From Thermoplasmata archaeon (GTDB taxonomy: Archaea > Thermoplasmatota > Thermoplasmata > Thermoplasmatales > Thermoplasmataceae), in NCBI GenBank assembly GCA_021797735.1, contig JAJZZE010000024.1, forward strand, positions 62,001-126,000: 64,000 nt of DNA, given 5' to 3'. The translations under genes and the position numbers were made by a program. Position 1 is the first letter of the stretch, and each line of letters opens with the position of its first letter. Below, piece by piece: positions 3 through 49,480 of this stretch. A model generated the notes under the pieces. It did no database searches. It saw nothing but the letters and a program-made list of their open reading frames with translations, and was not told the origin of the DNA.

Positions 3-353
3 GAGAAATTATCAGAGGGTTTCGATGGAATTATCATAATAGATGCAAATGGATTATTACACCCAAGGAAATGTGGTTTAGCAACATTTGCCGGAATAAT
101 AATGGATAAAACAACAATAGGTGTGGCAAAATCCCTGCTCCTGGGAAATATAAATAATAATTATATATATTACAATAATGAAAAACTTGGCTATATGATA
201 AATAAACATACCATAGTAAGTCCAGGAAATAAAATAAGTTTAGGGACAAGTATAAAAAAGATAATGTTATTAGGTAATGGTAAATATCCTGAAATATTAA
301 AACTGGCTCATAATGAGACCGTAAAATTGAGGAAGCGGAGATTGCCGAGCTAG
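3..353 (+). CDS. nfi: Endonuclease V, C-terminal part (5' end outside the window)
   Basis: Frame is open from the window edge: EKLSEGFDGIIIIDANGLLHPRKCGLATFAGIIMDKTTIGVAKS...VSPGNKISL..., which matches the EndoV pattern DGxGxxHPRxxGLAxxxG...PTIGVAK...SPG. The listed ORF start at 102 is internal. Confidence 0.85.
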   Translation, partial: EKLSEGFDGIIIIDANGLLHPRKCGLATFAGIIMDKTTIGVAKSLLLGNINNNYIYYNNEKLGYMINKHTIVSPGNKISLGTSIKKIMLLGNGKYPEILKLAHNETVKLRKRRLPS

Positions 354-419
354 GACAAAGGCGATGGATTCAGGGTTCATTTCCGCAGGGATTCGAGGGT
401 TCAAATCCCTCTCTCCGCA
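335..419 (+). tRNA. tRNA-Leu (anticodon CAG)
   Basis: Acceptor GCGGAGA (335-341) pairs with TCTCCGC (412-418). Anticodon loop TTCAGGG sits in stem ATGGA/TTCAT. Class II variable arm and T-arm GGTTCAAATCC are present. Confidence 0.92.
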
Positions 420-506
420 CTATTATAAAGTTTAATGTGTATACTATAAAGATAGATAATTACCTCTATTCCTTTATATACTGTTAAAATTCTTTATTAA
501 CGGATT
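409..506. repeat. 98-bp direct repeat, left copy (candidate attL)
   Basis: CTCTCTCCGCACTATTATAAAG...TTAACGGATT is identical to 10952-11049. It begins in the 3' end of tRNA-Leu. Confidence 0.93.
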
Positions 507-670
507 CTTTAACTTGAAGATACTTTATATATGAATCAAAGAAGACATTCCCCCGCATATTTTTTATTATCCTGCCGTTTTTTACCTTCCAGGTGAAATC
601 ATACAGATCACGTTTATCAAAATTATCGGTCTTATATATTCTTTCATACTGGGAAATCAGCACCTCAAAC
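484..670 (-). pseudogene. Relic C-terminal gene tail ending ...YIKYLQVKESVNKEF*
   Basis: Minus-strand reading FEVLISQYERIYKTDNFDKRDLYDFTWKVKNGRIIKNMRGNVFFDSYIKYLQVKESVNKEF* with no ATG start. Related tails occur at 11027 and 31097. Confidence 0.5.
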
Positions 671-939
671 TATTCAAATACTTTTAACGATAAAACTCTC
701 ACATTTATAGATATATAAATCAAATTATAATATTCTCTTCTATTATTAAAATAAAACACGGGGTTTGTGGGAAATTAAGAAATTTATTTTTAAAACATAT
801 AAATGGTTGAATGTTTAGCACATAATAATATTAAAATTATATCAAAATGAATTTTTTTTTCCGGTTAAAACCCAAGTTGAAAATCATTATTGATTGGAAG
901 CTAATTTTTTCTTCTTTATTTTTGTAAAGGTATTAAAAT

Positions 940-1320
940 CTGAAAAGTTATGAGTATAGTAATGACCAATGCATAATCCGGGCTTGCAAGTATACCTAAA
1001 TCCGATCTTGATAGCTTTGGGGTTACCATAGAAACGCTATAGAACGAGTTTATAATGGATCAGCTTGAAAGAAGCGGAGTTGACATCAAGAATGGCATAG
1101 GCGGTTTAGTCTCAGCCGAATTAGCTAACAAGATCGAAAAGTTTTAGTTGCTATGGTTGCTAGCCGAATTGTGAAATGTCCGGTGTGCGGAAAAGTAATA
1201 GTGGCTCTCCAATGAAAAAATAGGCTTTTAACGTGTTTGATGTTTCATGATATAAGTGCTCATCCTGTGAAAACAACTTCAATGTCAATGTGAGCAAACA
1301 TAATGCGTATACTATCCCAA
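940..1320 (+). pseudogene. Decayed small gene(s) with zinc-ribbon remnant
   Basis: Broken frames contain RIVKCPVCGKVIVA and YKCSSCENNFNVNVSKHNAYTIPKS, i.e. two CxxC knuckles, interrupted by stops and frameshifts. Confidence 0.35.
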
Positions 1321-1361
1321 AGAGTTAATAAACTTTATTCCCGATTTTTGAAGTTACTTAT

Positions 1362-4300
1362 TTACGAAATGAAATCCATTGTCACCAATTTAAGCTTTGA
1401 AGAATCGAATGGTTTTACATCCGCCTTCTTAAACATGCCTTTTTCAGCCAGAAAATTGCCAAGATCCCCTATCATTTTCTTCCAGTCACTGTCTTTCTTG
1501 TAAGATTTCCATATCTGCCTTAGGACTTGAAGCCTTTTCTTAGTGGGAGGAAGAGATAGTAGCTTTGATTTGATCTGTTCCCATACGTGTTCAACAGAGA
1601 TATCGTTAGGATATTCGTAAAGATAATCACTTAGCTGTATCTCAATCTCATCAATCATTTTCTTAATAAATTTAGTGCTGTTTGATCTGTTGAGTTCTTT
1701 CAACTGAGAATCTTGCGTGCTGCTGAGCTCTATCTCTTTGTATGTCCTTTCAATTTCCTCTAAAACCAGTTTATTTGTGTCATAGACTTTCTCGAAGAAA
1801 GACGGAATCACGCGTTTTTCCCCTTTTTTGCATTTTATGTACTCCAAAATGTCAGTTTTGCTGGTCAGAAAATTACCAGTGCTTAGATCGTATATATACC
1901 AGAAGTGGAAGTCCCTTTCATACTCATAGTAGAAGAATATTCCTGAGATATTTTCTCTCTTCAGTCCGCTGAACACGCCAAATGGAATTTTTTCCAGTTC
2001 CTCGACTCCCTTATCTTTAAGGAAGTCTTTCAATGGCTGATAAAAGAGCTCTCCACCGCCAAACAGGTCGGCTTCTAATTCTTTAAAGAGCTTTTCGTCC
2101 TTTCCTTTGATACGTCGGATTATCCCGAATACCTTAGGGTGTATTTCCTCCCCAAGAACAGTTTGGTCAAGACCAACAGAATTATCAATATCAACAATCT
2201 TGCTCTGTAGTGCCTGCACTAACTTGAGGAGCTCTTCAAGCTCATCTTCAGGGAAGAAGTTGTAGACGTAAATTTCCTTGTAGGGTGACCCAATCCTGTC
2301 AATCCTACCTGCCCTCTGAATCATGCGTGTTGGATTCCAGTGTAGATCGTAATTGATCAGGTACTTCGCAGTTTGAAGATTCTGGCCTTCGGATAGGACG
2401 TCTGTGCTGAGGATTATGTCAACATTCTTCTCGAAAAATTTCTTTATTATCTCTTCACGCTGTCCTGGGTTCTTACTGGTGGTTCCAGAGCTAGAAATCG
2501 CTTCGATCTTGAGTTTTGAGAACCGTTTATCGTTGATGATCTCTTCATAGATGTAGTTTAAGGTGTCCGCATAATATGTGAACAGGATAATCTGTCCGTC
2601 TTTGGACAGCTCCAGGAGCTTTTCCTTAAGAACATTGAGCTTTGAATCGTCACTGGGTTTAATTTTTTTAACCTTATCCAAAATGTTGTTTAACAAGTCT
2701 ATATCAATATCTATGTCATTGAACAGGTCATCAGCACGATATTCGGAGAGTTTGAAATCATTAAGAACTTCCTTGATATCCCCATCTTCCATTTCATCAT
2801 AGGACCTTAATATGTATCTTATGTAACTCTCCTTAGTCAGGAGCTTTTCATCCTTAAGGTACTTCTTCAACTTTTCAAGAAATTGGATATGGTTAAAGAT
2901 GCTCTTTCTGAAGGAGTCTACACTACTTTCCAATCGTTTCAACAAGATCGTCCTGAAAATACCACCAATGGCTATCATTCTGCCTAAGGCAAGCCTTTCC
3001 TCTTCGGTCTTAACGCCCTCCTTTCTGTACTCAAGAATGCGGTAATATGCCATTGTCAGTTTTTCAGTAAGAGTATCCGAAATCTCTTTGTACATTCCTT
3101 TGTATGCACTGTCCAGTTTGTAATTGATATTTTCAAGGACACGTTTAGGGAACGTAATTTTATGTTCTTCAGTCTCGCCATCTGGGAGCTCTGTTATTAT
3201 ATATGCATTGGGATAGTTCTCAATAATGTAGTCCCTTGTTCTCCTGATAGAGATTTCATTTAACAGGTCATTAAGTAGCGAAGGATTGTCTTTGGCATCC
3301 TTAAAGAATTTAAACAGATCTGGTATGTTTTCCTTGATAAACGCAGACCTGTCCATCAGTACTAGAAGCATAATTTGCCAGTACAGGTCCCATGGAGTAT
3401 TGTTTATAGGGGTTGCGGTAAGAAACAAAATGTAAGGTTTATTTCCCGAATTCGAAAAATGGTCATTAACAAGTGAAAAAAAGTTCTCCCACCTATTTGA
3501 TAGCGGGTTTCTAAAGTTGTGGCTTTCGTCAACAACGATTAATTCCACATTATCCAAACGCCCACCGAGCGTTCTCTTCGCCTTCTCAAGATAATTTTCA
3601 GAGGCAAGGTCCTCCTGCGATAGTATATTCTCTTTTGTATCTATTTTCTTAAGCTCGTTTCTCCACATCCCACGAAGCTGCGCTGGACATACAATCAATA
3701 TATTCTTCCGTTCATAGTAGCCAATTTGTTCAAGGATCTTCTTGGCGATCCATGTTTTTCCCAATCCAACGGAATCGGCCACTATACATCCGCCGTATTT
3801 CTTCATCCTTGTCCATATTCTAGCTATGGCATCTTCCTGGAACTGTGCTAGATTTACCTTAGTCTCAGGCAACCCTTTTGGTTTTTCTTCTTTTTGTCCT
3901 TCCTTTATGTCCTCTTTCTGCATTTCATAAAGTGTTTTGATGTATATTTCGTATGGAGAGTATTCTTTGCTGCCAAATCTGGAATTTTCAAGGAGTTCTA
4001 TTAACTGCATTTTGAAATCTATAGACTCAGCCCAAAACTTGTCAAACCATTCTTTTCTGGTATAGATGGCCTGGGATTCCTGCCTCCAGGTGTTCAGCTC
4101 GCCATATCTGGTAAGTCCTGCACGGGTGAAATTGGAAGAACCTATGACTATCCGATCATCAAAGATGTATGCTTTTCCATGAAGAAATTTCTCAAAAAGC
4201 CTCACTTCTACGTTGTCTCGTTTCAGGAACTCGATAAAAAGCCGTACTGTTGAATCAGAGTCCTTTGAGAGGTCAAAGCCTTCAACTTCTTTTTTTATCT

Positions 4301-4538
4301 CTTCAAGTAAGACATCACCAAGAGTAATATCATTCTGAATCTCTGGAGTCTTACCCAATAAAAGTCTAAATTTCACTGAGCGGTCAAGGTTATCCTTGAT
4401 CATAGCAAAACCACCTATGTTAAAGAACGCGGTGGCAATGTCAAAGTTGCCTTTCCCATTTTCTTTCAATGCATCATTTAAGAAGCTAACCAGTTTGTTA
4501 CCATCACTATTATCTATTATCTCTTTATGCAGCGCCAT
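1362..4538 (-). CDS. Phospholipase D-like nuclease / SNF2-family helicase fusion (defence operon gene 4)
   Basis: HKD motif HGKAYIFDDRIVIGSSNFTRAG. Helicase motifs: GGCIVADSVGLGKTWIAKK, VVDESHNFRN, LFLTATPINN, LSTDVLSEGQNLQTA...NWNP-like segment DLHWNPTRMIQRAGRIDRIGS. Confidence 0.93.
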   Translation of the reverse strand: MALHKEIIDNSDGNKLVSFLNDALKENGKGNFDIATAFFNIGGFAMIKDNLDRSVKFRLLLGKTPEIQNDITLGDVLLEEIKKEVEGFDLSKDSDSTVRLFIEFLKRDNVEVRLFEKFLHGKAYIFDDRIVIGSSNFTRAGLTRYGELNTWRQESQAIYTRKEWFDKFWAESIDFKMQLIELLENSRFGSKEYSPYEIYIKTLYEMQKEDIKEGQKEEKPKGLPETKVNLAQFQEDAIARIWTRMKKYGGCIVADSVGLGKTWIAKKILEQIGYYERKNILIVCPAQLRGMWRNELKKIDTKENILSQEDLASENYLEKAKRTLGGRLDNVELIVVDESHNFRNPLSNRWENFFSLVNDHFSNSGNKPYILFLTATPINNTPWDLYWQIMLLVLMDRSAFIKENIPDLFKFFKDAKDNPSLLNDLLNEISIRRTRDYIIENYPNAYIITELPDGETEEHKITFPKRVLENINYKLDSAYKGMYKEISDTLTEKLTMAYYRILEYRKEGVKTEEERLALGRMIAIGGIFRTILLKRLESSVDSFRKSIFNHIQFLEKLKKYLKDEKLLTKESYIRYILRSYDEMEDGDIKEVLNDFKLSEYRADDLFNDIDIDIDLLNNILDKVKKIKPSDDSKLNVLKEKLLELSKDGQIILFTYYADTLNYIYEEIINDKRFSKLKIEAISSSGTTSKNPGQREEIIKKFFEKNVDIILSTDVLSEGQNLQTAKYLINYDLHWNPTRMIQRAGRIDRIGSPYKEIYVYNFFPEDELEELLKLVQALQSKIVDIDNSVGLDQTVLGEEIHPKVFGIIRRIKGKDEKLFKELEADLFGGGELFYQPLKDFLKDKGVEELEKIPFGVFSGLKRENISGIFFYYEYERDFHFWYIYDLSTGNFLTSKTDILEYIKCKKGEKRVIPSFFEKVYDTNKLVLEEIERTYKEIELSSTQDSQLKELNRSNSTKFIKKMIDEIEIQLSDYLYEYPNDISVEHVWEQIKSKLLSLPPTKKRLQVLRQIWKSYKKDSDWKKMIGDLGNFLAEKGMFKKADVKPFDSSKLKLVTMDFIS

Positions 4539-4547
4539 ATTATCACC

Positions 4548-5039
4548 TTAAAATTTCCACCCTTCTATCCTGAACATTTCAATTATACCAATAGAGTCTA
4601 TGCTGTACTTCTGGCATACATATGGTATCCGAACTTTATATCCACGGAGTCTCTCTTCCGTGACAACTATTCTTTTTATTTGGACTATGGTTTGTTGGGA
4701 CCCTGTGGCCATTTCTACTGCCAGAGCCACTACCCAGGCGTCAGCATCATATTTCCTATCTTCTTTTACCAACGCAGGATAATTCTTTAAGATATCCTTC
4801 AATATTTCAACCTGCCTCTTCGTTGGCGGCCGAAATAGACTACTATTCCTCTTGGCCCACAATGCAAGCTCATCGTCCCTTTCTTTGACCTCTAATAGTA
4901 CTTCTGTTGGGGCGACCAGAAGACCTTTCTTGGATAATGATTCCAAGTTATTCCATACACTTGGGAACACATCAATTGGATTGTGTCTATTGAGTTCTAC
5001 GAACGAAGATGTGTCCATAATGTAGTGGTAGAAAGTCAT
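4548..5039 (-). CDS. DUF4411-like PIN-domain protein (defence operon gene 3)
   Basis: MTFYHYIMDTSSFVELNR...EVLLEVKERDDEL...YDADAWVVALA: PIN-like acidic residues. It sits next to an ImmA/IrrE gene, as in known DUF4411 pairs. Confidence 0.75.
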   Translation of the reverse strand: MTFYHYIMDTSSFVELNRHNPIDVFPSVWNNLESLSKKGLLVAPTEVLLEVKERDDELALWAKRNSSLFRPPTKRQVEILKDILKNYPALVKEDRKYDADAWVVALAVEMATGSQQTIVQIKRIVVTEERLRGYKVRIPYVCQKYSIDSIGIIEMFRIEGWKF

Positions 5040-6184
5040 TTTCTCGCCCTTGCCAGAACTTTATCGAAATTCTTAGATTTTATAGATAGGAAGCTCAGTG
5101 CATCGTTGTAAGTTATGAATTCCTTATCGAAATTGTTTGCAACAAGAGATACAAACTTATTGCCCATTTCCGAAAGACACTTCCGATCAGTTGCTATTTT
5201 CTTGAACTTCTTCTCTTTTTTCTCCACTTTTATTTCCTTTGGAGTATATCTAGCAAGCACGGACTCAAATTCTTGCCTTGAAATGTAATTTAGATTTACC
5301 ATTTTCACCAGTAGAACTGCCTTACTTACCTTATATCTCTTAGACAGAGCATTCAGTGTGTCCGTCTCCGTGAGGTTATGTACGTGTTTGTTAAATATAT
5401 CAATTGAGATCTCCTTTGGCAACAGGAAAGCCGATGAGAAGGAGTCGCACCAGCCCTCAATATTGCTTCTAGCCTGCAAAGACTCTTCTGGGAGGTCTAT
5501 TACGGTCTCTCCTAAGATTATGTGTCCAAACTCATGCATTAAAGTGAACAACCGAGCTTCGATGCTGTCCTTTGAGTTTATCACTATAATGTTCGGAGTT
5601 CCATCTGCTAAGGCAAACCCTCTTGCATCCTCAATTGGCATGGATAACTGAAAAACCAGAATATTATGGTCTTCTAACACGTCTCGTAAATACCCCATCA
5701 TCTTGTATGCATCTCCGAACTTCCTTTGCTCTTCAATGTCAAAATTCAATATCTTCCGATATTCTGAAGCAATGAATTCTGGATTATCGGTTAGTTTTGC
5801 CTTTTTGATTTCAGTTTCAGTGGCATAATTGATATTAAGGGACAGTTCTTTGCTCACACTCTGAAGACCCCGGGTTCTTCGGATGGCAAGAATGGTTTTG
5901 CGGTCGAATATGTTAGTCTTGTTTGGTAGAAACCTATAGTCCTTAGGCATCGGTCTTTCCTGTTTTGGTTTTGATAGGAAGAATGACGCAATTGGCCTTT
6001 TGTAGGTTTCTGAAAGGATATACAATTGCCTCATAGTTGGGTTCCTTTTCCCTGATTCCATGTCCTTGACCACTTCCACAGTTGTTCCGAGTTTCTTGGC
6101 AACTTCCCCTACTTCCCAACCTGCACTAGTTCTCAACCACCTGAGAACTTCAGGCACCACATCAATGGTAAATGATTTGGCCAT
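5036..6184 (-). CDS. XRE-family HTH plus ImmA/IrrE (COG2856) metallopeptidase (defence operon gene 2)
   Basis: N-terminal HTH VGEVAKKLGTTVEVVKDMESGKRNPTMRQLYILSETYKRPIASFFL; zinc-protease motif LMHEFGHIILGE. Confidence 0.92.
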   Translation of the reverse strand: MAKSFTIDVVPEVLRWLRTSAGWEVGEVAKKLGTTVEVVKDMESGKRNPTMRQLYILSETYKRPIASFFLSKPKQERPMPKDYRFLPNKTNIFDRKTILAIRRTRGLQSVSKELSLNINYATETEIKKAKLTDNPEFIASEYRKILNFDIEEQRKFGDAYKMMGYLRDVLEDHNILVFQLSMPIEDARGFALADGTPNIIVINSKDSIEARLFTLMHEFGHIILGETVIDLPEESLQARSNIEGWCDSFSSAFLLPKEISIDIFNKHVHNLTETDTLNALSKRYKVSKAVLLVKMVNLNYISRQEFESVLARYTPKEIKVEKKEKKFKKIATDRKCLSEMGNKFVSLVANNFDKEFITYNDALSFLSIKSKNFDKVLARARK

Positions 6185-6185
6185 T

Positions 6186-9100
6186 CTAATCCCTCAAACT
6201 TTTTGCTTTGTCAATCCTCTGTTTCACTAACTCACAAACTGACCAGTAAACTTCTTTCCTCTCACCTTGAGTCAACCCCAACTCATCGAATATAATGTTG
6301 TCAAGTTCTGCCCTATCAGGGAGAGGGTTAGGTTTCTGCTCTCTTATTGGTTTTTCCCTATCTATACCAACCTCTTCGAAAATCGATTGGGGCTTTCTTT
6401 TTCCCAAGGCATCGAGGAGATCTTGCAATTGTCGCTTTACCTTTGAATTAAACCTTTCCACATCTAATGTTAGAATCTTCTTTGCATCACTAGTCTCAAA
6501 CTTAAGTGCACCCTGACCCAGATTGGACCTTCCTAGCAGCATCACAAAAAATATTTGTATTGTGGAATTCAAAATTGCAGCCAACTCTTTGTAATTTATG
6601 TCCGTTTTCTCAAACAATCTGTGAAATGCCCTGTCGCTCGCCAAAGGGAAATTGGAATACGGACAGTAAAATCGCTCATTAGAAACATATTGGATGAATA
6701 TATGGGCGGGAATCAAGTTTTTCTCCGGAATCGAGTACCAATATTTTCTGTGTTTTACAGTTTCGACATTTGACCACCTGATCCCAGACTCGGTCTTTTG
6801 CCTTTTTCGTGTAACTTGTTTTTCTCCCCATTCAATGTAACTCATCAATCCCAGATGTCCCTCTAATATTAACTCCTTCTTTGATAATGATGGAACAGCT
6901 AGAACATAATTATTTGGAGTTATGGTAATATTTAGAGCCTCCACATCATCCGCATTTCTAATTATAGGTTTAACATAATATTCTTCAATTTTAAATGTCT
7001 CTATGGCTTTATCATCTATGTAAAAGAAGTCATTAACACCGGTATAACACCCAGGAAGTATTGAATCTGCTAGTTTATTTAACGGAATTATGCTCTCTTC
7101 ACCCCTTTCCATAATAATGTAGAAAATATCTGGTGCTCTTAGGTATTTCCCGCCCCATTTATTTCCTTCATAACTGCCTGATTTAAATCTGCCATTTTTG
7201 TAATTCTCCGGATATTCCCAACCATCTTCCAGCAGGTCTTCTTGCAACATAGGAAAAATCCTGCAATCATTTGTGCTAACAACATTCTTAACTAGATCAG
7301 TAATTCCTTTTCTTTTCTCTTTGACTTTGACGTTTTCAATACTAACAAGATTTTGAGATGATAGCACCTCTTCAAAAGGCTTCTTGAACATTATAAACTT
7401 CGCAACACTCTTAATATTTGGCCAAACCTTTTCATTACCACCAGTCACATCATTAAACCAATCTCCCAGGCTTCTTTGTTTTGCTTCAGGCGCCCCAAAT
7501 AGTGCAATTATAGTGTTTACATCAGCATGCGTAAAGCTCCTTTTTGGATTGTCATAGATTGCTGTTATTGGAACATACTTACATAAGAACTCCTGCAATA
7601 CCTTTCCATATTCAACATCTAACCAAGAATTAGATGTAATAAAACAGAAACTCCCATTATTATTCAATAAACTTAAACCGTGAAAATAAAAATAGATGTA
7701 ATAATCGCTTCTCTTCCCCACATCTTTTAGGACTGGAAATCTCTCTTTAACTGATTCAATCAATTTATCTTTATACTCTTTCTTTTCCTCACTCGTAACC
7801 TCTGATTTTAGTTTATTTGGAGGCGAAATCATTTCTTGCCTAACATAAGGTGGATTCCCAATAACTATGTCAAACCCTTCTTTTTCTGAAAATATTTCTG
7901 CAAAATCAATGTCCCAGACGAAAGGTTTCTTCTCAGGATCATTCAAATGGTTCTTGACATTTCTTAGCTTCTCAATTTCTTCCTTATTTGTGTTAATCCT
8001 CAGTAGGTTCTCATTTACTTTTTTCTCATCTATTACTTGCTCTCCGGCAAGAGTTTTTTGAGACCTCGCTATCTTTATGTTATGCTCAAAGACTTGTATA
8101 TCAGTTGTAAGACTCTCAACTCTTTCATTTATTATTTCCTCAAATAGATGAATTTCCTCCTCTTTAACCTCCTCGGGTGACTTGAATTTGGCAGTTGGTG
8201 AGTTTTCAAAGTACTTCCTTTTTTCCTGTTTTAAGTCATCCAACTTCCTCTTCAGGTGATCTTTCAAGTTATTTGTTCTTAAATTGAAGCTTATACCACC
8301 AATTTCCTGAACAAGAGAGTCCCCCACTCTTAGGTTGAGATTCAGGTTTGGCAAAAGTGGGTGCTGTCTCAATTCTTCTTTTTTAAACTCGGTTTCTACG
8401 ATCAATTGGAGCCAGAGCCTCAACTCGGCGGCGTGAATTGCCCAGGGCATTACGTCAACCCCGTACAAGGAATATTGAATTACTCTATTTTTCAGTGCAA
8501 AGTCTGATAGACTGTTACCGATGTACTTATATATCATCCTGTAGAGGTCAGAAACAACATTCAGCATACCCACTAAAAAGGCACCTGAGCCGCAGGCTGG
8601 ATCGACCACTGAGAGGTTGCTTAGGGTGTCTTCAAGCTTCCTCCAATGTTCATTTTTCGTGAACCAATCCTCTATCTTTTCTCTCTCTTCGGCTGGGTCA
8701 AAAATGAGAGAGTAGAATTTTTCCTTTGGTAATTCTGACAAATTTTTGGACAGGTATTCAACCAGACTCCTACGGCACATGAAATCCACCTCAACTCTGG
8801 GGGTGTAAAAGATGCCAAGGTCATTCCTATCGTAGATTTCCTCGGCAACATTAGCAAGTGACTCATAGACATAACCAATCATCTGGGGATCTACTGCAAC
8901 TTCTGATTCTAGGGGCATATCTTCCTTTATTGTGAAATTGTAGGACTCGAAGAATTCGAGGACTTCCTGGAATATCTTGTCAGTTATGAGAATCTTGAGG
9001 TTATCTAGACCATTCTCCCTGAAAAGACCTCCATTAAGGTATGGAGCATTGGAAATTACTTTCACAACGTCTTCTGGCAATCCTTTGACCTCATTTGCTC

Positions 9101-9920
9101 TGTTGTTAAATGCCTTGAGGAATACCTGTTTAAGCCATTTTTCATAAAATTCATTAGAATTGTACTTTCCAAGTACTCTGTATTTTGTCCATAGCCAGTC
9201 AACAAATTTCGGCTCTTCTAACCAGTCTTTCTTTGATATAAAATAGATAAACATGATTCTGTTCAGGAATTGCAGAGTAAATTCGTGGGATTCTTTGCTC
9301 GAAATCATCTGTCTTTGTAATTCACTTCTCAGCTTGAAGAATACTTCTTTATAACCGTCAAAAAAAGCCTCTGTTACTCTTTCCACGCTGAAGGCTTTTT
9401 TCCACTTTTTCCAGACCTCTCTCCATGTTGTTTTGTTTTCATATCCGAAGTTTGCTAAGGTTTCTATGACACTGTAATAAGCCTTCTTGGTTCTAATATC
9501 CTCTTTATCTACGTTGAGTTTGATCAGCTTAAGTTTATGTTTCCCTGTCTCAACTTTCTCTTTATCTGGGAAGACGAAGGTTATCCCATTATAGTCAGTC
9601 GTGAAAATAAGAAGGTACTGAATGTACTGCTTGTCTAATGTGTTTGTGACAGATCTGATGAAAGATGGGACTAATGTAGTTGTTTCCAAAAGGAAAACAG
9701 GCAATTTATCGTCCAAGTTTAAGACAGAATAGATCTCCTTTATTCTTTCATTATCCTCCTTTTTGAATTCAAATGTTGATTTTCTTCTCTTCGAGGAAAG
9801 GTCTAGTATTGAGCCTTCAGGATATCCGAGAATACTAAAAAGCTCATAAACGCCTTTAGCATCCTCAATTTTAATGATTTGATTATATACATTTTCCCTT
9901 AAAATAATATTATTTTCCAT
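6186..9920 (-). CDS. Eco57I/PglX-like N6-adenine DNA methyltransferase, 1244 aa (defence operon gene 1)
   Basis: SAM motif VVDPACGSGAFLVGML; catalytic FDIVIGNPPYVRQEM; C-terminal region resembling target recognition domains of the Eco57I/PglX class. Confidence 0.92.
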   Translation of the reverse strand: MENNIILRENVYNQIIKIEDAKGVYELFSILGYPEGSILDLSSKRRKSTFEFKKEDNERIKEIYSVLNLDDKLPVFLLETTTLVPSFIRSVTNTLDKQYIQYLLIFTTDYNGITFVFPDKEKVETGKHKLKLIKLNVDKEDIRTKKAYYSVIETLANFGYENKTTWREVWKKWKKAFSVERVTEAFFDGYKEVFFKLRSELQRQMISSKESHEFTLQFLNRIMFIYFISKKDWLEEPKFVDWLWTKYRVLGKYNSNEFYEKWLKQVFLKAFNNRANEVKGLPEDVVKVISNAPYLNGGLFRENGLDNLKILITDKIFQEVLEFFESYNFTIKEDMPLESEVAVDPQMIGYVYESLANVAEEIYDRNDLGIFYTPRVEVDFMCRRSLVEYLSKNLSELPKEKFYSLIFDPAEEREKIEDWFTKNEHWRKLEDTLSNLSVVDPACGSGAFLVGMLNVVSDLYRMIYKYIGNSLSDFALKNRVIQYSLYGVDVMPWAIHAAELRLWLQLIVETEFKKEELRQHPLLPNLNLNLRVGDSLVQEIGGISFNLRTNNLKDHLKRKLDDLKQEKRKYFENSPTAKFKSPEEVKEEEIHLFEEIINERVESLTTDIQVFEHNIKIARSQKTLAGEQVIDEKKVNENLLRINTNKEEIEKLRNVKNHLNDPEKKPFVWDIDFAEIFSEKEGFDIVIGNPPYVRQEMISPPNKLKSEVTSEEKKEYKDKLIESVKERFPVLKDVGKRSDYYIYFYFHGLSLLNNNGSFCFITSNSWLDVEYGKVLQEFLCKYVPITAIYDNPKRSFTHADVNTIIALFGAPEAKQRSLGDWFNDVTGGNEKVWPNIKSVAKFIMFKKPFEEVLSSQNLVSIENVKVKEKRKGITDLVKNVVSTNDCRIFPMLQEDLLEDGWEYPENYKNGRFKSGSYEGNKWGGKYLRAPDIFYIIMERGEESIIPLNKLADSILPGCYTGVNDFFYIDDKAIETFKIEEYYVKPIIRNADDVEALNITITPNNYVLAVPSLSKKELILEGHLGLMSYIEWGEKQVTRKRQKTESGIRWSNVETVKHRKYWYSIPEKNLIPAHIFIQYVSNERFYCPYSNFPLASDRAFHRLFEKTDINYKELAAILNSTIQIFFVMLLGRSNLGQGALKFETSDAKKILTLDVERFNSKVKRQLQDLLDALGKRKPQSIFEEVGIDREKPIREQKPNPLPDRAELDNIIFDELGLTQGERKEVYWSVCELVKQRIDKAKSLRD

Positions 9921-10084
9921 TATTAAAACCTCTTTTTAAGCTTTACTGATATTATCGTGGCATTATATAATAATATTTGTAGTTCCATTGTGTAGCACGG
10001 GTTAATCTTCTTTTTTATTAGCATGACAAGTTCTAAATTCTACAGGCAATTGATACTCTGAAAAATGTTGATTTGCTGGTGTCT

Positions 10085-10297
10085 CTAAAAACATACTGTT
10101 TGACGATGAGACTTTATAATACGCTTGTTTTTTAACAACGCTACCAGTATCAACAAATCCCGATCCCAAAGGTTCTTTAACGTTTCGCCTTCTACATCTG
10201 CATAGACATGTTTCATGCGGCTATTACCGAGTTTAATTAGTGAACAGGGACCCGATAGGCGTTCACGCTTTAAAACTCTAAAAATTAGTATTTGCAA
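10085..10297 (-). pseudogene. Possible transposase-derived fragment
   Basis: Short reading ...LSGPCSLIKLGNSRMKHVYADVEGETLKNLWDRDLLILVALLKNKR; resembles transposase tails, family not identified. Confidence 0.2.
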
Positions 10298-10550
10298 GGA
10301 TTTTTTAATAGCTCGTATTCATGAGACCAAATTTCGTGAACATTTACAAATCCTTTGTTTTTCTGATTTTCCATTTAAAAATTGTAGTGTTCATGGTATT
10401 CACGGGATTCTATAGTATAATTAACTAATGGTAGTGTGTGGAATTTCGAAGTTTTTTCACACAGGATCCAATGATATTCCTTTAATTAAATAATTGGATA
10501 GTTTTTATTACCGGAAAAAGATTAATTGAATTAAAATCAATAATAATAGT

Positions 10551-10907
10551 TTACTTCCTGGTTATTTCATTCCTAAATTTTTCTAAAAATTCAGGCACCT
10601 TCCCATAACGCCATTTGTAAAACCTCTTTAATACACCCTCATAATCTAATATTGTTTTATAAGTGTATTTTTCCCTGAACTTCAAAAACATATTTATTAT
10701 ATCATTCTTTTCAGGATCCAGGAATTTATCCCCAAGGTAATTATATATTACCCTTACCCTTACTAAATAAAAATATATCCTGTGTTCTGTTATTCCAGTA
10801 ATCTTCAATTCATTAATAAAATTAAAAATAATATTTCTTTCCTTCTCAGGAATATGATCATATCTTTTATACTCACTCCTTATATCTCTTTCAATTTGAT
10901 AAATCAT
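10551..10907 (-). pseudogene. Tyrosine recombinase/integrase, N-terminal SAM-like core-binding domain only
   Basis: LKITGITEHRIYFYLVRVRVIYNYLGDKFLDPEKNDIINMFLKFREKYTYKTILDYEGVLKRFYKWRYG is typical of archaeal integrase N-domains. No catalytic R..HxxR..Y domain follows. Confidence 0.75.
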
Positions 10908-10951
10908 AATGCTATTATTGACTGTGAGCGTATTAAACTTTTAGGCTTAGT

Positions 10952-11049
10952 CTCTCTCCGCACTATTATAAAGTTTAATGTGTATACTATAAAGATAGAT
11001 AATTACCTCTATTCCTTTATATACTGTTAAAATTCTTTATTAACGGATT
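10952..11049. repeat. 98-bp direct repeat, right copy (candidate attR)
   Basis: Identical to 409-506; identity ends at 11050 (T versus C at 507). Confidence 0.93.
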
Positions 11050-11215
11050 TTTTGGCCTGAATGTATTTTTCTGCATATTTTTGATTATCTTGCCATATTT
11101 TTCAATTTAATATAAATTACTTGTGAAATTAAAGCCGTTCGCAAAATCATAAAAACCTGAAGGATATTGATAATCTTTTTGCTTAATTCCAAGCTCTTCT
11201 TCTAGTTTACGTTGT
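11027..11215 (-). pseudogene. Relic C-terminal gene tail, second copy (...YAEKYIQAKKSVNKEF*)
   Basis: Minus-strand tail parallels the 484-670 copy: YGKIIKNM then, after a frameshift, EKYIQAKKSVNKEF*. Confidence 0.45.
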
Positions 11216-11322
11216 GTATATATGTTTTCCCATCACTATTAGGAAAATTAATATATAGATTATAAGATACCTTACATGTAAAATATTCCATAGAAGGGAA
11301 AATATTTCAATAATATATAGTA

Positions 11323-11613
11323 TTGAAGATAATTGCTAAATTAAGGATGATATTAATGGTATATAAAAGAAAAATTCAGGTTATAGATATTAAAGTGGAT
11401 GAGCCATTAAATGATATAAAATTCGTGCAGATATCGCTTGGATTTAAACTTGATAGTGATAAGCGAGGAGCTCCCCCAATTTTCAAACATAGTATACATA
11501 TTTTCATACCAAAAGAAGAATGGAGATCGCAATATAAAATGTGGGAAGAGTATACATTAAGCATAGATGATTCTGGTAATATTATTATGAAAAAATTAGG
11601 AGATGGGGATTAA
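11323..11613 (+). CDS. Small conserved-looking hypothetical protein (first gene of a three-gene set; start may be internal, e.g. MVYKRK...)
   Basis: ORF KRKIQVIDIKVDEPLNDIKFVQISLGFKL...SIHIFIPKEEWRSQYKMWEEYTLSI; overlaps the next ORF by 11 nt. Confidence 0.6.
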   Translation: MKIIAKLRMILMVYKRKIQVIDIKVDEPLNDIKFVQISLGFKLDSDKRGAPPIFKHSIHIFIPKEEWRSQYKMWEEYTLSIDDSGNIIMKKLGDGD

Positions 11614-11980
11614 AGTGTTTAATAATTCTATAATAGCTGGATCTATAAATATTTCAGATTCAACAACCAGCAATGAAGTTTCCCAAAGTATAACAGATAT
11701 CAGTAGTATTAAAATTGAAGAAATTAAGGTATTTGATAAGATTGTACACTTTAAAAAACCATTAGCATTCAAGGTTAAATGTGATAATTCTATCCTATGT
11801 AATTTTTGTGTAGCGAGCAATTTAATTAACATTTATGAGCACGATTCAAATATTGAAAAATTAAAAGAAAAAATCAAAGAAGATCTGTCAATACAGTGGG
11901 AGGATATAGTAATGGCTGATGATTCTGAATTATTTGAAGATGCAATAAAACTTAAAAAATATCTATTATCATTTATGTGA
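11603..11980 (+). CDS. Hypothetical, antitoxin-like small protein
   Basis: C-terminus EKLKEKIKEDLSIQWEDIVMADDSELFEDAIKLKKYLLSFM resembles archaeal small antitoxin-like proteins; overlaps the next start (GTGA). Confidence 0.55.
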   Translation: MGIKVFNNSIIAGSINISDSTTSNEVSQSITDISSIKIEEIKVFDKIVHFKKPLAFKVKCDNSILCNFCVASNLINIYEHDSNIEKLKEKIKEDLSIQWEDIVMADDSELFEDAIKLKKYLLSFM

Positions 11981-12270
11981 TTTTTTTGACAAAAATAAAA
12001 ACAGATAAAATATTAAAAGCTTTGGAGAAGAAAGGCTTCAAGAAAGATTCGAAACGCGATCATATAATATTGAGATTTTATATGGATAATAAAAAAACAG
12101 CAATATTCACCAAAATAAGCCATGGAAAAAGTGAATATGGAGATCCACTATTAAATTATATGAAAAAAGAACTTCATATCTCTAAACCAGAATTAATTAA
12201 CCTTATAAACTGTGTATTAAGCGAGGAAATGTATATTGAATATTTAAAACAAAAAGGATTTTTTAGTTAA
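11977..12270 (+). CDS. HicA-like / small RNA-binding-fold protein, candidate toxin
   Basis: GTG start. KTDKILKALEKKGFKKDSKRDHIILRFYMDNKKTAIFTKISHG follows the HicA-like layout (helix, GF(x)n basic, H, beta hairpin). Confidence 0.5.
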   Translation: MIFLTKIKTDKILKALEKKGFKKDSKRDHIILRFYMDNKKTAIFTKISHGKSEYGDPLLNYMKKELHISKPELINLINCVLSEEMYIEYLKQKGFFS

Positions 12271-12462
12271 AATCCCAATTGAGGGTAGAATTATACCTTT
12301 ACCATTTTTTTCTCTTCAAATTTGACGCACTTTTCGCTTTTTTCTTGGAGTTTTTAGTTAATCACAGTATGGTTGATATTTCTTAACTAAAAGGTCTTTT
12401 AAAAAAGAATAAGAAATTTTAATTATTAGCAATACAATTTAAATTATAATTAAATATAAATT

Positions 12463-32440: not shown

Positions 32441-32473
32441 TTTAAAACGTTTGTATATAATGTATTGAATATG

Positions 32474-32561
32474 TGCCGGGGTCGGGGATTGAACCCGAGA
32501 CCTTCGGATTTCTCAGCATAAACTTATGAGTCCGACGCTCTTCCAACTGAGCCACCCCGGC
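32474..32561 (-). tRNA. tRNA-Met (CAT, elongator type) with ~15-nt intron in the anticodon loop
   Basis: Acceptor GCCGGGG/CCCCGGC. Between stem halves TCGGA and TCCGA lie 22 nt, CTCATAAGTTTATGCTGAGAAA; removing ~15 nt leaves a 7-nt loop with CAT. Confidence 0.9.
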
Positions 32562-40059: not shown

Positions 40060-40770
40060 TCAAAGTACTGTCTGAGGTGAATGATCTCTGGTACCTGGAG
40101 GGATGTTGTCGACCTCATGAGAACAAAGTTCGTGGTGGAATATTCCGGGAGGCGGGTAAGGGGGATCCTGAAAGAATTCAAAGTGAAATATGCAAAACCG
40201 TACCAGGTAGATTACAGGAAGCCTAAAGATGCTGAGGAAAAACTAAAAAAAGCCGGTCGGATAAATAATGATAATACCGTGAGGATATGATCATAAAAAA
40301 CGCCACAAAGTTCAGTGCAAACATATTTTGCTTCTATGCATTCACCGGATATGACGTTGTGAACATGAATCAAAATTCAAAGCAGGGAAGTGCCATGGAT
40401 TTCTTCCATGAGATAAGATGCAGGAATCCGTTCAACCACATTATCGTGATACTGGGCAATTTCTCTGCACACAAAACAGAAGATGTAGCAATCACTGCAG
40501 AGTTCCTGGATATTGAACCCATATTCTTGCCTCCATATTCTACACAGCTGAATTCTATAGAAGAGAACGGGAAATCCATTAAAAGAATAATTTCAAGAAC
40601 CCTTGTGAAAGACCAGGCTCTGATGGTTGAAACAGTCAAGACGAATTTCATTGACCTGCCAAAAAAGAAGACATTCTGCGAAAACTGGATGGGAGTGCTT
40701 GCCCACCAATTAGTCCAGTTAGTTGTGTCCTCCAATATAATCACCGACATCTCTCTTGATGGATTTATCA
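40060..40770 (+). pseudogene. IS630-family transposase, decayed and frameshifted
   Basis: N-part WRDVVDLMRTKFVVEYSGRRVRGILKEFKVKYAKPYQVDYRKPKDAEEKLKK; C-part FSAHKTEDVAI...IEPIFLPPYSTQLNSIEENGKSIKRIIS. The middle is missing and the catalytic Asp is replaced (ILGNFSAH versus LDN). Confidence 0.8.
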
Positions 40771-40916
40771 GCTATCAAAATAATCTGCCACAGGGTATTT
40801 ACACTCATATTTGCTGTTTCACAACCTATTGTGGCTCTGTAGCGATTATCAAGGTGATTTCGGCGAATGCTTCACAGTGATGTGATGACTCCTATATAAA
40901 ATGAGGTCAGTGAAAA

Positions 40917-41153
40917 TCACACATGGGCAAAGCCAACAATCACTAATATGATCATAATTGCTATGTAAATTCGAAGAAACCAGAATGCTAACTTGACGCG
41001 CTTGCTGAAGGCAACTTTGTTGACTGTAACCTTTTTATAGTCTTCAATCTCCTCTTCGATAATGAAATGGCTGAAGTCTGGAAGTTGCGAGTAATCCTGT
41101 TTTCTTTCCTGTTTTCTTTCCACTTTATTCTTTGACATTAAGTTCACCACCAT
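40917..41153 (-). CDS. Small single-TM protein downstream of the NRAMP gene
   Basis: Charged N-terminus, C-terminal helix LAFWFLRIYIAIMIILVIVGFAHV. Confidence 0.6.
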   Translation of the reverse strand: MVVNLMSKNKVERKQERKQDYSQLPDFSHFIIEEEIEDYKKVTVNKVAFSKRVKLAFWFLRIYIAIMIILVIVGFAHV

Positions 41154-42584
41154 TTACAGCGAAGATGCCAGATGCGCAAAAACAGCAGGAAGTGCAATTG
41201 ATATTCCATAAAGGGCATTCATCACGATCAAAAACCCTATTATTCCAAATCCTACGACATTTTGCCATTTTCTGTTGGCATGATTCCCCATTATTTCCCT
41301 ATCGTTCAGAAGCAGCAGTAGAAACAGCATCGCGGCAGGCATAAATATTGTAGCTATCACCTGCACCGTCAGGTTCAGATACCCCAGTGGTACATTTGGT
41401 ATTAGCGTTATCCCCGCTGCAATTATCAAGGCACCAAAACTTGGAAGATAGAATTTCAAAGATTTCTTGTCCCTTGCCGGAAGGTTAATACTTCCTTTCC
41501 ACCCAAAAGCCTCACTTACTGCCCAGGAGGTACTGGCTGATATGGCTATTGCAGCAATTAACCCTGCCTCCACCAATCCAACTGCAAAGAGCTCCATGGG
41601 GAAAACACCGACCTTTGATGCAAAGATCTGAAGAATTCTGGCAACACCGACCGTTCCGTCTTTATCCGATCCGTACACGGTCATCCCTGTAAGGATTATG
41701 ATACAGATTGCGACAGTTACCATTACAGCCGAACCAATTAGTGTATCGATCTGTCCTCTCCTTATATCGTGTGTAGTCAGGCCTTTGTCAACAACTGAGG
41801 ATTGCTGGAAGAAAAGCATCCAGGGTGCAATAGTTGTGCCAAGATTGGCTAACAGCACATATATGAACAGAGACCCAATTGGGCCATTTATTCTCCAGCT
41901 CACAAAGCTCTGTGATACCAGTGACCAGTCAGGGTTAGGCAGAAAAAGAAGAAGTGGAATAAAAATCAGATTAAATGCAGCTATTAGTAAGGATACTCTT
42001 TCCCAAGTAAAATATCTTAGAAATAACTGGATAGAAATTACTGATGCTACAAACACAATTGCTGAGATTATGGGTGGAACACCGAAAATTGACATTCCCA
42101 CTGTAATTCCTATGAATTCAGTTATGAAGGTGAGAAAGTTCGCCGCCACTAGATCTGCTAGAGAGAAAGAGCCCCAGAATCCTCCATACCGTTTCCATAT
42201 CATTTCAGCATGTCCTCTGTGTGTCACAGCACCTAGTCTTACAGTCATTTCCTGCACAAAATAGGCTACTGGCAGCATAAGAATCATAAAAGGGATGAAA
42301 AAACCAATACCGAATATCGACCCGGTCTGGGCATATGTTATAACGCCCCCAGCATCGTTATCGGCTACCATTACAAGGATACCGGGTCCAAGCATCATCA
42401 AAAAGAGTTCCAGTCTCGATGCAAGGGTATGTTTCTGCCGGTGAAGGACAATGTGCAACCGATCCTCCGCCCTAAGTCTCTCCTCTGATGGAAGCCCCTC
42501 GATTTTTTTTAAAAGCTCTGAATTGGAAAGTTCGTGTTCATGCTTTTTCCAGAAACTCACGGATATCATCCCCGCTTTTAACAC
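41154..42584 (-). CDS. NRAMP-family metal ion transporter
   Basis: LGPGILVMVADNDAGGVITYAQTGS (DPGN-like region), ~11 TM helices, FQQSSVVDKG motif. Start may be at MISVSFWKK. Confidence 0.9.
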   Translation of the reverse strand: MLKAGMISVSFWKKHEHELSNSELLKKIEGLPSEERLRAEDRLHIVLHRQKHTLASRLELFLMMLGPGILVMVADNDAGGVITYAQTGSIFGIGFFIPFMILMLPVAYFVQEMTVRLGAVTHRGHAEMIWKRYGGFWGSFSLADLVAANFLTFITEFIGITVGMSIFGVPPIISAIVFVASVISIQLFLRYFTWERVSLLIAAFNLIFIPLLLFLPNPDWSLVSQSFVSWRINGPIGSLFIYVLLANLGTTIAPWMLFFQQSSVVDKGLTTHDIRRGQIDTLIGSAVMVTVAICIIILTGMTVYGSDKDGTVGVARILQIFASKVGVFPMELFAVGLVEAGLIAAIAISASTSWAVSEAFGWKGSINLPARDKKSLKFYLPSFGALIIAAGITLIPNVPLGYLNLTVQVIATIFMPAAMLFLLLLLNDREIMGNHANRKWQNVVGFGIIGFLIVMNALYGISIALPAVFAHLASSL

Positions 42585-48160: not shown

Positions 48161-49480
48161 ATGAAAGAAGAATTCCGGTATGTGATAAGCGAATGGCTTT
48201 CCAGAGATCTGCCAGAAACGGTAGAAAGAGATGTACGGGTAAACCTAAATGCCGATAAAATTATAGCTATAGCCGGTGTGAGGCGTACGGGCAAGACTTA
48301 CCTGCTCCTTGATATAATAAAAAGGCTGACCAGGACACACATCCCTAGAAAGAATACCCTTTACATAAATTTCGATGATGACAGGCTGGTAAACCCGGCA
48401 AGCGGCGACCTTGATGATATGCTCGATGTTTACATGGAACTTGCAGCTCCTGAGAAGAATAATATTATTTTTCTATTCCTGGATGAAATACAAAACGTGA
48501 ATAACTGGGAACTGTGGATCAGAAGAATGTATGATTCAAAGAAATACAGGATATTCATAACCGGATCCAGTTCTAAACTTCTGAGTAGAGAGATTGCCAC
48601 ATCATTGGCTGGAAGGAACATAACATACGTACTATACCCATTTTCATTTAGAGAGTTTCTGGTAGCGAAAGGAGTAAAAATGGGCAAGAGTCTACTCTAT
48701 GGCGAGGAACGCCATAGAATTAACGCCCTGGCAAGGGAATATATAATAAATGGTGGATTTCCAGAGATTGCCTTTGAAGAGGAGAGGGAAACAAGGAGGA
48801 GAATCATAAGTGCCTATTATGATGCAATACTATATAGGGATATAGTAAGCAGGTATAGAATAGAAGATGTAAATAAGCTGGAGATGGTCTTCAGATATGC
48901 AATAAATACATATAGCGGTAGTTTTAGTACCGTAAAACTCCATAATTATTTCAATAGTCAAAATATTAAAATAAGCAGACAGACTATAAACAATTTCATC
49001 AAATTCGGCGAACAGACCTTTCTCTTCTACCAGCTCATGCAGTTCTTCAAAGGCTTCAAGAGGTCAAACCAATCCAGAAAGAAGCTGTATATTGTGGATA
49101 GCGGTATAATAGGTCTGCTGATATCAAATGTCGAGTACGGGAAATTACTGGAAAACTCTGTCTTTGTTGAACTTCTTCGAATGAAGGAACGAAATCCCTC
49201 CATCGAAATAAATTATCTAAGCGATAAGTATGGAGAAGTAGACTTCGTAATATCAGAGGGTGGATCCATAACAGAGTTGCTGCAGGTTACCTATGAACTT
49301 AACCGTGATAATATGGAGAGAGAACTGCGCCCTCTGCTGAGTGCAACACAGCGCCTTAAGCCTAAACGAAGCATACTCATAACCTTCAATGCGGTAGACA
49401 AAACCATGATAGTGGAAAAGGAGATAGAAACGTTGACATTCACGCAATGGGCACTTAGAACCTATGTGGTAGAATCCTAA
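48161..49480 (+). CDS. Archaeal AAA ATPase (ATP-binding, DUF4143-type)
   Basis: AIAGVRRTGKTYLLLDIIKRL, IIFLFLDEIQNVNNWELWIRRMYDSKKYRIFITGSSSKLLSREIATSLAGRNITYVLYPFSFREFL; C-terminal EINYLSDKYGEVDFVI. Confidence 0.95.
   Translation: MKEEFRYVISEWLSRDLPETVERDVRVNLNADKIIAIAGVRRTGKTYLLLDIIKRLTRTHIPRKNTLYINFDDDRLVNPASGDLDDMLDVYMELAAPEKNNIIFLFLDEIQNVNNWELWIRRMYDSKKYRIFITGSSSKLLSREIATSLAGRNITYVLYPFSFREFLVAKGVKMGKSLLYGEERHRINALAREYIINGGFPEIAFEEERETRRRIISAYYDAILYRDIVSRYRIEDVNKLEMVFRYAINTYSGSFSTVKLHNYFNSQNIKISRQTINNFIKFGEQTFLFYQLMQFFKGFKRSNQSRKKLYIVDSGIIGLLISNVEYGKLLENSVFVELLRMKERNPSIEINYLSDKYGEVDFVISEGGSITELLQVTYELNRDNMERELRPLLSATQRLKPKRSILITFNAVDKTMIVEKEIETLTFTQWALRTYVVES

Follow-up and report, generated by a model that had tools for sequence, protein, structure and literature searches.

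Archaeal defence is poorly charted. In type I/ISP restriction-modification (RM), an adenine methyltransferase (MTase) with its own target region is combined with an ATP-dependent translocating nuclease. Type-2 BREX-related (BR) loci pair an N6-adenine MTase with an HKD endonuclease-SNF2 protein, a proposed RM-like pair accompanied by DUF499 and DUF3780 (PMC12839542), and carry PIN, HEPN and Schlafen proteins as back-up effectors (Rakesh and Krishnan 2026, PMC12839542). Defence genes have also been described within or beside RM operons: DarTG2 lies between hsdS and hsdR (PMC12255303), HEPN toxin domains are associated with R-M operons (PMC3710099), and PMC12988326 cites PDC and HEC families named through guilt-by-embedding. 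Here we describe a four-gene operon in a 64,000-nucleotide stretch of contig JAJZZE010000024.1 of a Thermoplasmata archaeon (this whole stretch is referred to as the window). Judged from its sequence, the operon probably encodes a two-subunit, ATP-dependent RM-like core with an embedded PIN toxin-antitoxin cassette as abortive back-up.

A four-gene operon with intact catalytic motifs

An earlier note on this DNA had described four packed minus-strand genes of defence-related families with intact catalytic motifs. Their coordinates and spacings (1 nt, a 4-nt ATGA overlap and 9 nt) were reproduced, and Pfam agreed with all four family assignments. The genes, all on the minus strand, encode an Eco57I-type N6-adenine DNA MTase of 1244 aa (6186-9920; PF07669, 2.6e-29); a 382 aa XRE + ImmA/IrrE (M78) protein, the presumed antitoxin (5036-6184; Peptidase_M78, PF06114, 1.3e-16, and HTH_3, PF01381); a 163 aa DUF4411 PIN-domain protein, the presumed RNase toxin (4548-5039; PF14367, 6.5e-26); and a 1058 aa fusion of an HKD (phospholipase D-type, PLD) nuclease with an SNF2 helicase (1362-4538; PLDc_2, PF13091, SNF2-rel_dom, PF00176, and Helicase_C, PF00271).

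Catalytic residues were present in all four proteins and conserved across their homologues. These were the unbroken DPACGSG and NPPY motifs of the MTase, the unbroken ImmA active site (H217, E218, H221 and E243), the PIN acidic residues D9, E50 and D100 of DUF4411, and H120-K122-D127, Walker A GLGKT, DESH and QRAGRIDRIG of the SNF2 protein, whose HKD motif (residues 120-127; 4158-4181, minus strand) was invariant in 13 homologues. In PADLOC, the XRE-ImmA protein matched RmrA (9e-23, in a library without curated cut-off) and the SNF2 protein matched the C3a139 'HKD+Snf2' model (2e-48), on which our literature search found no relevant paper. No PADLOC model matched the DUF4411 protein, which hence had no match to the RmrT toxin family. 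A scan for sigma-70-type promoters, a consensus unsuited to archaea, stayed near chance level.

The MTase and HKD-SNF2 genes flank a variable slot

Relatives of the SNF2 protein were sought in 392 genomes of the phylum and, by scanning, among 85,462 species genomes; they turned up in Thermoplasmatota, several DPANN groups, Altarchaeum and several bacterial phyla. When all four proteins were mapped onto the fetched loci, the MTase adjoined HKD-SNF2 in nearly all of them, including distant pairs with a small gap or none (L018, L019, L021, L023, L024, L050 and plasmid L139). The MTase and HKD-SNF2 genes are a conserved unit that also occurs as a two-gene operon. Viral contigs held 13 relatives, at 24-33% identity. 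Matches on E. coli plasmids were set aside, as their neighbourhood differs and contains DUF4391. Genome G017 carries a second MTase + HKD-SNF2 pair (L024, 4757-12320, minus strand) with an HSDR_N protein upstream.

We surveyed the gap between the two core genes in 19 loci of the window's close family that have the MTase-to-SNF2 order and both gap borders visible, L064/L065 and L078/L084 being near-duplicates. The gap held XRE + DUF4411 in 9/19 loci and other genes in another 9/19, and in one (L063) the MTase and SNF2 genes overlapped by 4 nt. XRE + DUF4411 were the sole gap content in seven loci (the window, L013, L015, L064, L065, L070 and L080). The identical four-gene order thus recurs in at least six further loci and is not a one-off. 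In L060 the two genes were accompanied by extra genes, and in the bacterial locus L071 the DUF4411 match fell under the Pfam cut-off.

This slot had sharp borders: the 3' ends of the MTase genes were alike among loci, as were the 5' ends of the SNF2 genes, and unrelated cargo lay tight against the SNF2 start. Named by Pfam and PADLOC unless marked as by inspection, the cargo consisted of AAA_14/DUF4143, equal to PDC-S01 (L059); MNT + HEPN, equal to PDC-M05 (L060); an MNT + HEPN-like pair (by inspection) and Schlafen AlbA_2 (L069); Schlafen AlbA_2 (L061); FokI-like and DUF4365 proteins (L062); HSP70, UvrD and DUF4258/DUF2283 (L067); PDC-M30 (L068); DUF488 (L072); PIN (L074); DUF433 with a DUF5615 PIN (L078 and L084); DUF262, equal to HEC-05, on a Deinococcus plasmid (L141); and, on Microcystis aeruginosa plasmid p1 (L138, 2937-11267), a CBASS pair of CD-NTase (9.7e-139) and 2TM/SLATT effector (9.6e-77). 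On the SNF2 tree, at least four changes of slot state were needed, three of them forced by supported branches. By its gene content, the slot takes differing modules in differing lineages.

Two further observations concern these cargo families. In L069 (1301-6295) the MTase gene seems to be in two pieces, the bulk of it and a C-terminal fragment resembling the target region, with the Schlafen AlbA_2 gene lying between them. Elsewhere in the window, an AAA_14 + DUF4143 ATPase gene (48161-49480, plus strand) has the Pfam architecture of the PDC-S01 candidate in the L059 slot.

The XRE-ImmA and DUF4411 genes form a separable cassette

The XRE-ImmA gene and the DUF4411 gene that follows it form a bicistron through their 4-nt overlap. 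The same pair was found without MTase or SNF2 in six archaeal loci, its order unchanged, and two of these standalone pairs (L106 and L107) were nearer to the window's pair (53-56%) than the in-slot pair of L080 was (46% and 39%). A single clade of in-slot archaeal XREs, and with it a single origin of the in-slot cassette, was rejected by the approximately unbiased (AU) test (p-AU 1.3e-4, with a long-branch caveat). Identity at four-fold sites between the window and G017 was higher in the middle of the XRE gene (79-86%) than in the MTase and SNF2 genes (mostly 12-68%, with few sites per bin), which suggests that the cassette was exchanged recently.

The pair is already known in complex form, since PDB 9VZY contains homologues of both proteins (chain A to XRE-ImmA, 5.7e-43; chain D to DUF4411, 7.2e-23); our search of the literature found no relevant paper on this entry. 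DUF4411 proteins were described as PIN-domain proteins in a study of VapBC52, whose toxin cleaves tRNA (PMC13273310). By distribution and homology the two genes are a separable toxin-antitoxin cassette, with toxicity and neutralisation as their predicted activities. In congener G004 an XRE-ImmA/DUF4411 pair stands, on inspection, beside type I hsd-like genes (L105, 8329-16697).

These data bear on whether the four proteins work together as a single integrated antiviral machine, XRE-ImmA/PIN being the sensor or abortive arm of the core, as the earlier note had proposed. The bare four-gene order is kept with tight spacing in seven loci from several genera, and the MTase and SNF2 proteins are homologous in every carrier, so the cassette could have adapted to them. 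However, the core occurs without the cassette and the cassette without the core, the slot holds many other modules elsewhere, and the in-slot XREs are not one clade, all of which makes a single four-part machine quite unlikely. Three of the note's proposals are supported: the toxin-antitoxin-like pair, borne out by the homologous solved complex; a defence-type operon, whose methylase role and helicase-nuclease role are predicted from sequence; and the separation of the locus from canonical BREX and DISARM. Its integration of the four genes into one system is not supported.

The presumed target region is swapped in the MTase only

Residues 951-1200 of the MTase (6321-7070, minus strand), the presumed target-recognition region, are swapped between relatives. 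Identity to relatives was 20-36% there, compared with 43-81% over residues 1-950 and 61-95% over the last 44 residues; against G017 the corresponding values were 29%, 80% and 95%. The SNF2 protein had no comparable trough, its lowest 100-aa window being 85% against G017 and 72% against G019. Between G019 and YS3, identity of the MTase genes at four-fold sites was ~70-95% up to residue ~560 and mostly 18-47% from there to the end, then recovered inside the XRE gene, marking a block swap of the C-terminal half of the MTase. Because an SNF2 protein with its own specificity would leave self DNA exposed after such swaps, we infer that target choice lies with the MTase, for methylation as well as for cutting by the restriction subunit. 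Swapping confined to the MTase lends indirect support to the idea that the MTase and the translocase may share one specificity.

The top PADLOC matches of the MTase were REase_MTase_IIG models (8.8e-56), which would fit a self-sufficient type IIG enzyme with HKD-SNF2 as an independent neighbouring defence gene. Such an enzyme is highly improbable here: no invariant D-(D/E)xK triad was found in the N-terminal region, a fold search with a model of residues 1-430 gave no nuclease match, or indeed any significant match, HKD-SNF2 adjoins the MTase in nearly all loci, and it is in the MTase only that the target region is swapped.

The operon lies on an integrative element in tRNA-Leu

The integration site is a tRNA-Leu (CAG) gene (335-420, plus strand; ARAGORN). 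A 118-nt direct att repeat (94%) begins within the 3' end of this gene, with its left copy at 409-526 and its right copy at 10952-11069, both on the plus strand. In congeners G007 and G004 the site is empty, the tRNA region running straight into sequence that matches the window from ~12,420 onward (96% and 79% identity, respectively). About 12 kb of the window is thus foreign. The operon element takes up 421-10951, and a further small insert (11070-12424) follows past the right att copy; the empty-site alignment showed this insert to be missing in the congeners. This second insert carries two overlapping small genes (11603-12270, plus strand), one with a weakly HicA-like product of 97 aa (PF07927, E 0.0027, below cut-off); the pair is possibly a HicBA-type toxin-antitoxin.

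The element also contains two gene remnants on the minus strand. A tyrosine integrase remnant (10551-10907; NF040815 weak) keeps an N-terminal part, 63% identical to residues 3-110 of a 408-aa integrase of G006, and a short C-terminal match, with the catalytic middle gone. The other retains the C-terminal part of an AAA+ ATPase (9929-10216; Orc1/Cdc6-like by inspection; 49.5% over 101 aa, E 8e-22). In both G017 and G019 the AAA+ gene is complete and directly adjoins the MTase, and the intact copy gives AAA Pfam matches; in the window, G007 and G027 it is reduced to remnants. As it is decayed in these three genomes, and as the DPANN loci that we examined lack it upstream of their MTase, we treated it as a passenger of the element and rejected it as a fifth core component. 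With the integrase gutted and the AAA+ gene reduced to a remnant, the operon element looks immobile and partly decayed. The four operon genes are intact and under purifying selection, with dN/dS against G017 of 0.02 (SNF2), 0.05 (DUF4411) and 0.13 (XRE), and, for the MTase with its target region left out, of 0.05 against G019; the integrase and AAA+ genes of the island are decayed.

Related loci were seen in two other genomes. A decayed copy of the window operon, with SNF2 and AAA+ fragments, is found in G027 (L051), and in congener G006 a distant MTase + HKD-SNF2 pair (L019, 5343-12964, minus strand) stands beside the full-length 408-aa integrase related to the window remnant.

An operon on an integrative element, and a cassette that also occurs alone, could be taken to mean that the cassette is mainly a selfish stabiliser of the element through post-segregational killing, with no antiviral part, and that the core alone defends; the HicA-like gene in the neighbouring insert would suit this as well. 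However, the cassette is whole and evolves under purifying selection even though the element has lost its integrase, and defence modules, recognised or candidate, are found in the slot time and again, the CBASS pair included. We consider a mainly selfish role without antiviral part unlikely.

Two features lie elsewhere in the window. A patch of higher GC (about 0.40-0.43) at 40287-42584 contains an Nramp transporter and a DDE_3 transposase fragment, and ARAGORN called a tRNA with an unassigned anticodon at 32473-32561 (minus strand).

Discussion

The RM-like core with an embedded abortive cassette would place two functional layers in one operon on the tRNA-Leu element. In the first layer, the MTase would read a specific motif through its C-terminal region and mark self DNA with N6-methyladenine, and HKD-SNF2, presumably in physical contact with the MTase, would translocate on and cut unmarked DNA, so that the layer would correspond to a type I/ISP enzyme that is split and HKD-armed. 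The second layer would be the type II toxin-antitoxin cassette (XRE-ImmA antitoxin and DUF4411 PIN RNase) between the core genes: infection, or loss of the first layer, is predicted to act as the trigger that disturbs the complex, so that the PIN RNase would be freed to act on RNA and growth would stop.

Several points weigh against this reading. The SNF2 protein contains only one HKD motif, so that a dimer would be required for cleavage. An AlphaFold model of MTase residues 1-430 (mean pLDDT 76.8) gave no significant PDB fold match, and a divergent nuclease might conceivably be present in this N-terminal region. The 85,462-genome scan was queried with peptides from the window's own SNF2 and its census therefore tilts toward close relatives, many loci are contigs of metagenome-assembled genomes, and the remaining dN/dS comparisons were saturated in dS.

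A bolder proposal can be made only tentatively, and we regard it as doubtful: the two-gene MTase + HKD-SNF2 operon may be an unrecognised, widespread restriction class, a split and PLD-armed relative of type ISP, in which the slot serves as a dedicated dock for complete abortive-infection modules, so that the embedded toxin is licensed once the core is lost or inhibited. If the main reading, an RM-like core with an embedded cassette, is right, a compact restriction operon would be spread over archaea and bacteria. The slot would be a route to new abortive modules by embedding, with XRE-ImmA/DUF4411 here and a CBASS pair, MNT-HEPN and several unannotated genes elsewhere, and functional coupling of restriction cores to embedded toxins could be tested against their mere co-transfer.

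Among described systems, BREX was ruled out, as PglZ and BrxC/PglY are not at the locus: PglZ is missing from the island, with only weak partial matches on another contig of the genome, and no BrxC/PglY ATPase is found in the island, to which that search was confined. Class 1 DISARM (DrmD, DrmMI and DrmC) shares the SNF2 helicase, adenine MTase and PLD nuclease functions, but the operon has neither DrmB nor a separate DrmA gene, and its PLD domain is fused to the helicase. DrmB (MZB/DUF1998) was found in 0/6 genomes with the operon or part of it, the window's own included, while 8 control genomes gave matches, and the DrmD equivalog level was missed (170 bits against a cut-off of 610); class 1 DISARM was ruled out for want of defining genes.

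Type-2 BR is the closest named class, as it too has both an N6-adenine MTase and HKD-SNF2. In contrast to Type-2 BR, the window system has only two core genes, with cargo in between, and lacks DUF499. This ATPase was found in 0/6 genomes (the window's and five relatives), a control genome giving a match, and because of its absence we did not file the operon under Type-2 BR. Pfam found no DUF3780 among the four operon proteins, where alone it was sought. By analogy, the operon may work like Type-2 BR. The shared pairing of MTase and HKD-SNF2 (PMC12839542) and the DrmD-like helicase scores could indicate a reduced Type-2 BR or class 1 DISARM locus from which other genes were lost. However, the two-gene form is widespread and stable, DUF499 and MZB are both absent from six genomes holding the operon or part of it, and scores lie far under the equivalog cut-offs, so that reduction is very unlikely.

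Like type I/ISP enzymes, the operon combines an adenine MTase with a target region and a predicted ATP-dependent translocating nuclease; unlike them, it encodes two polypeptides with HKD in place of PD-ExK and an SNF2-type motor, and no HsdS. The cassette resembles RosmerTA (RmrA/RmrT, PMC10440598) in its XRE-ImmA antitoxin with the toxin downstream, but its DUF4411 toxin matches no PADLOC toxin model. It also resembles the 9VZY complex in both of its proteins, and differs from RosmerTA and 9VZY alike in being embedded in an RM-like operon. As in other embedded defence modules, a defence cassette lies between the subunit genes of another defence system; here the carrier is an MTase + HKD-SNF2 pair, for which we found no report in a search that excluded the primary embedding preprint. 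The compact carrier appears new, as do its slot and its broad range, though a prior description is possible. The operon puts familiar kinds of parts together in a new way and is not a wholly new immune system.

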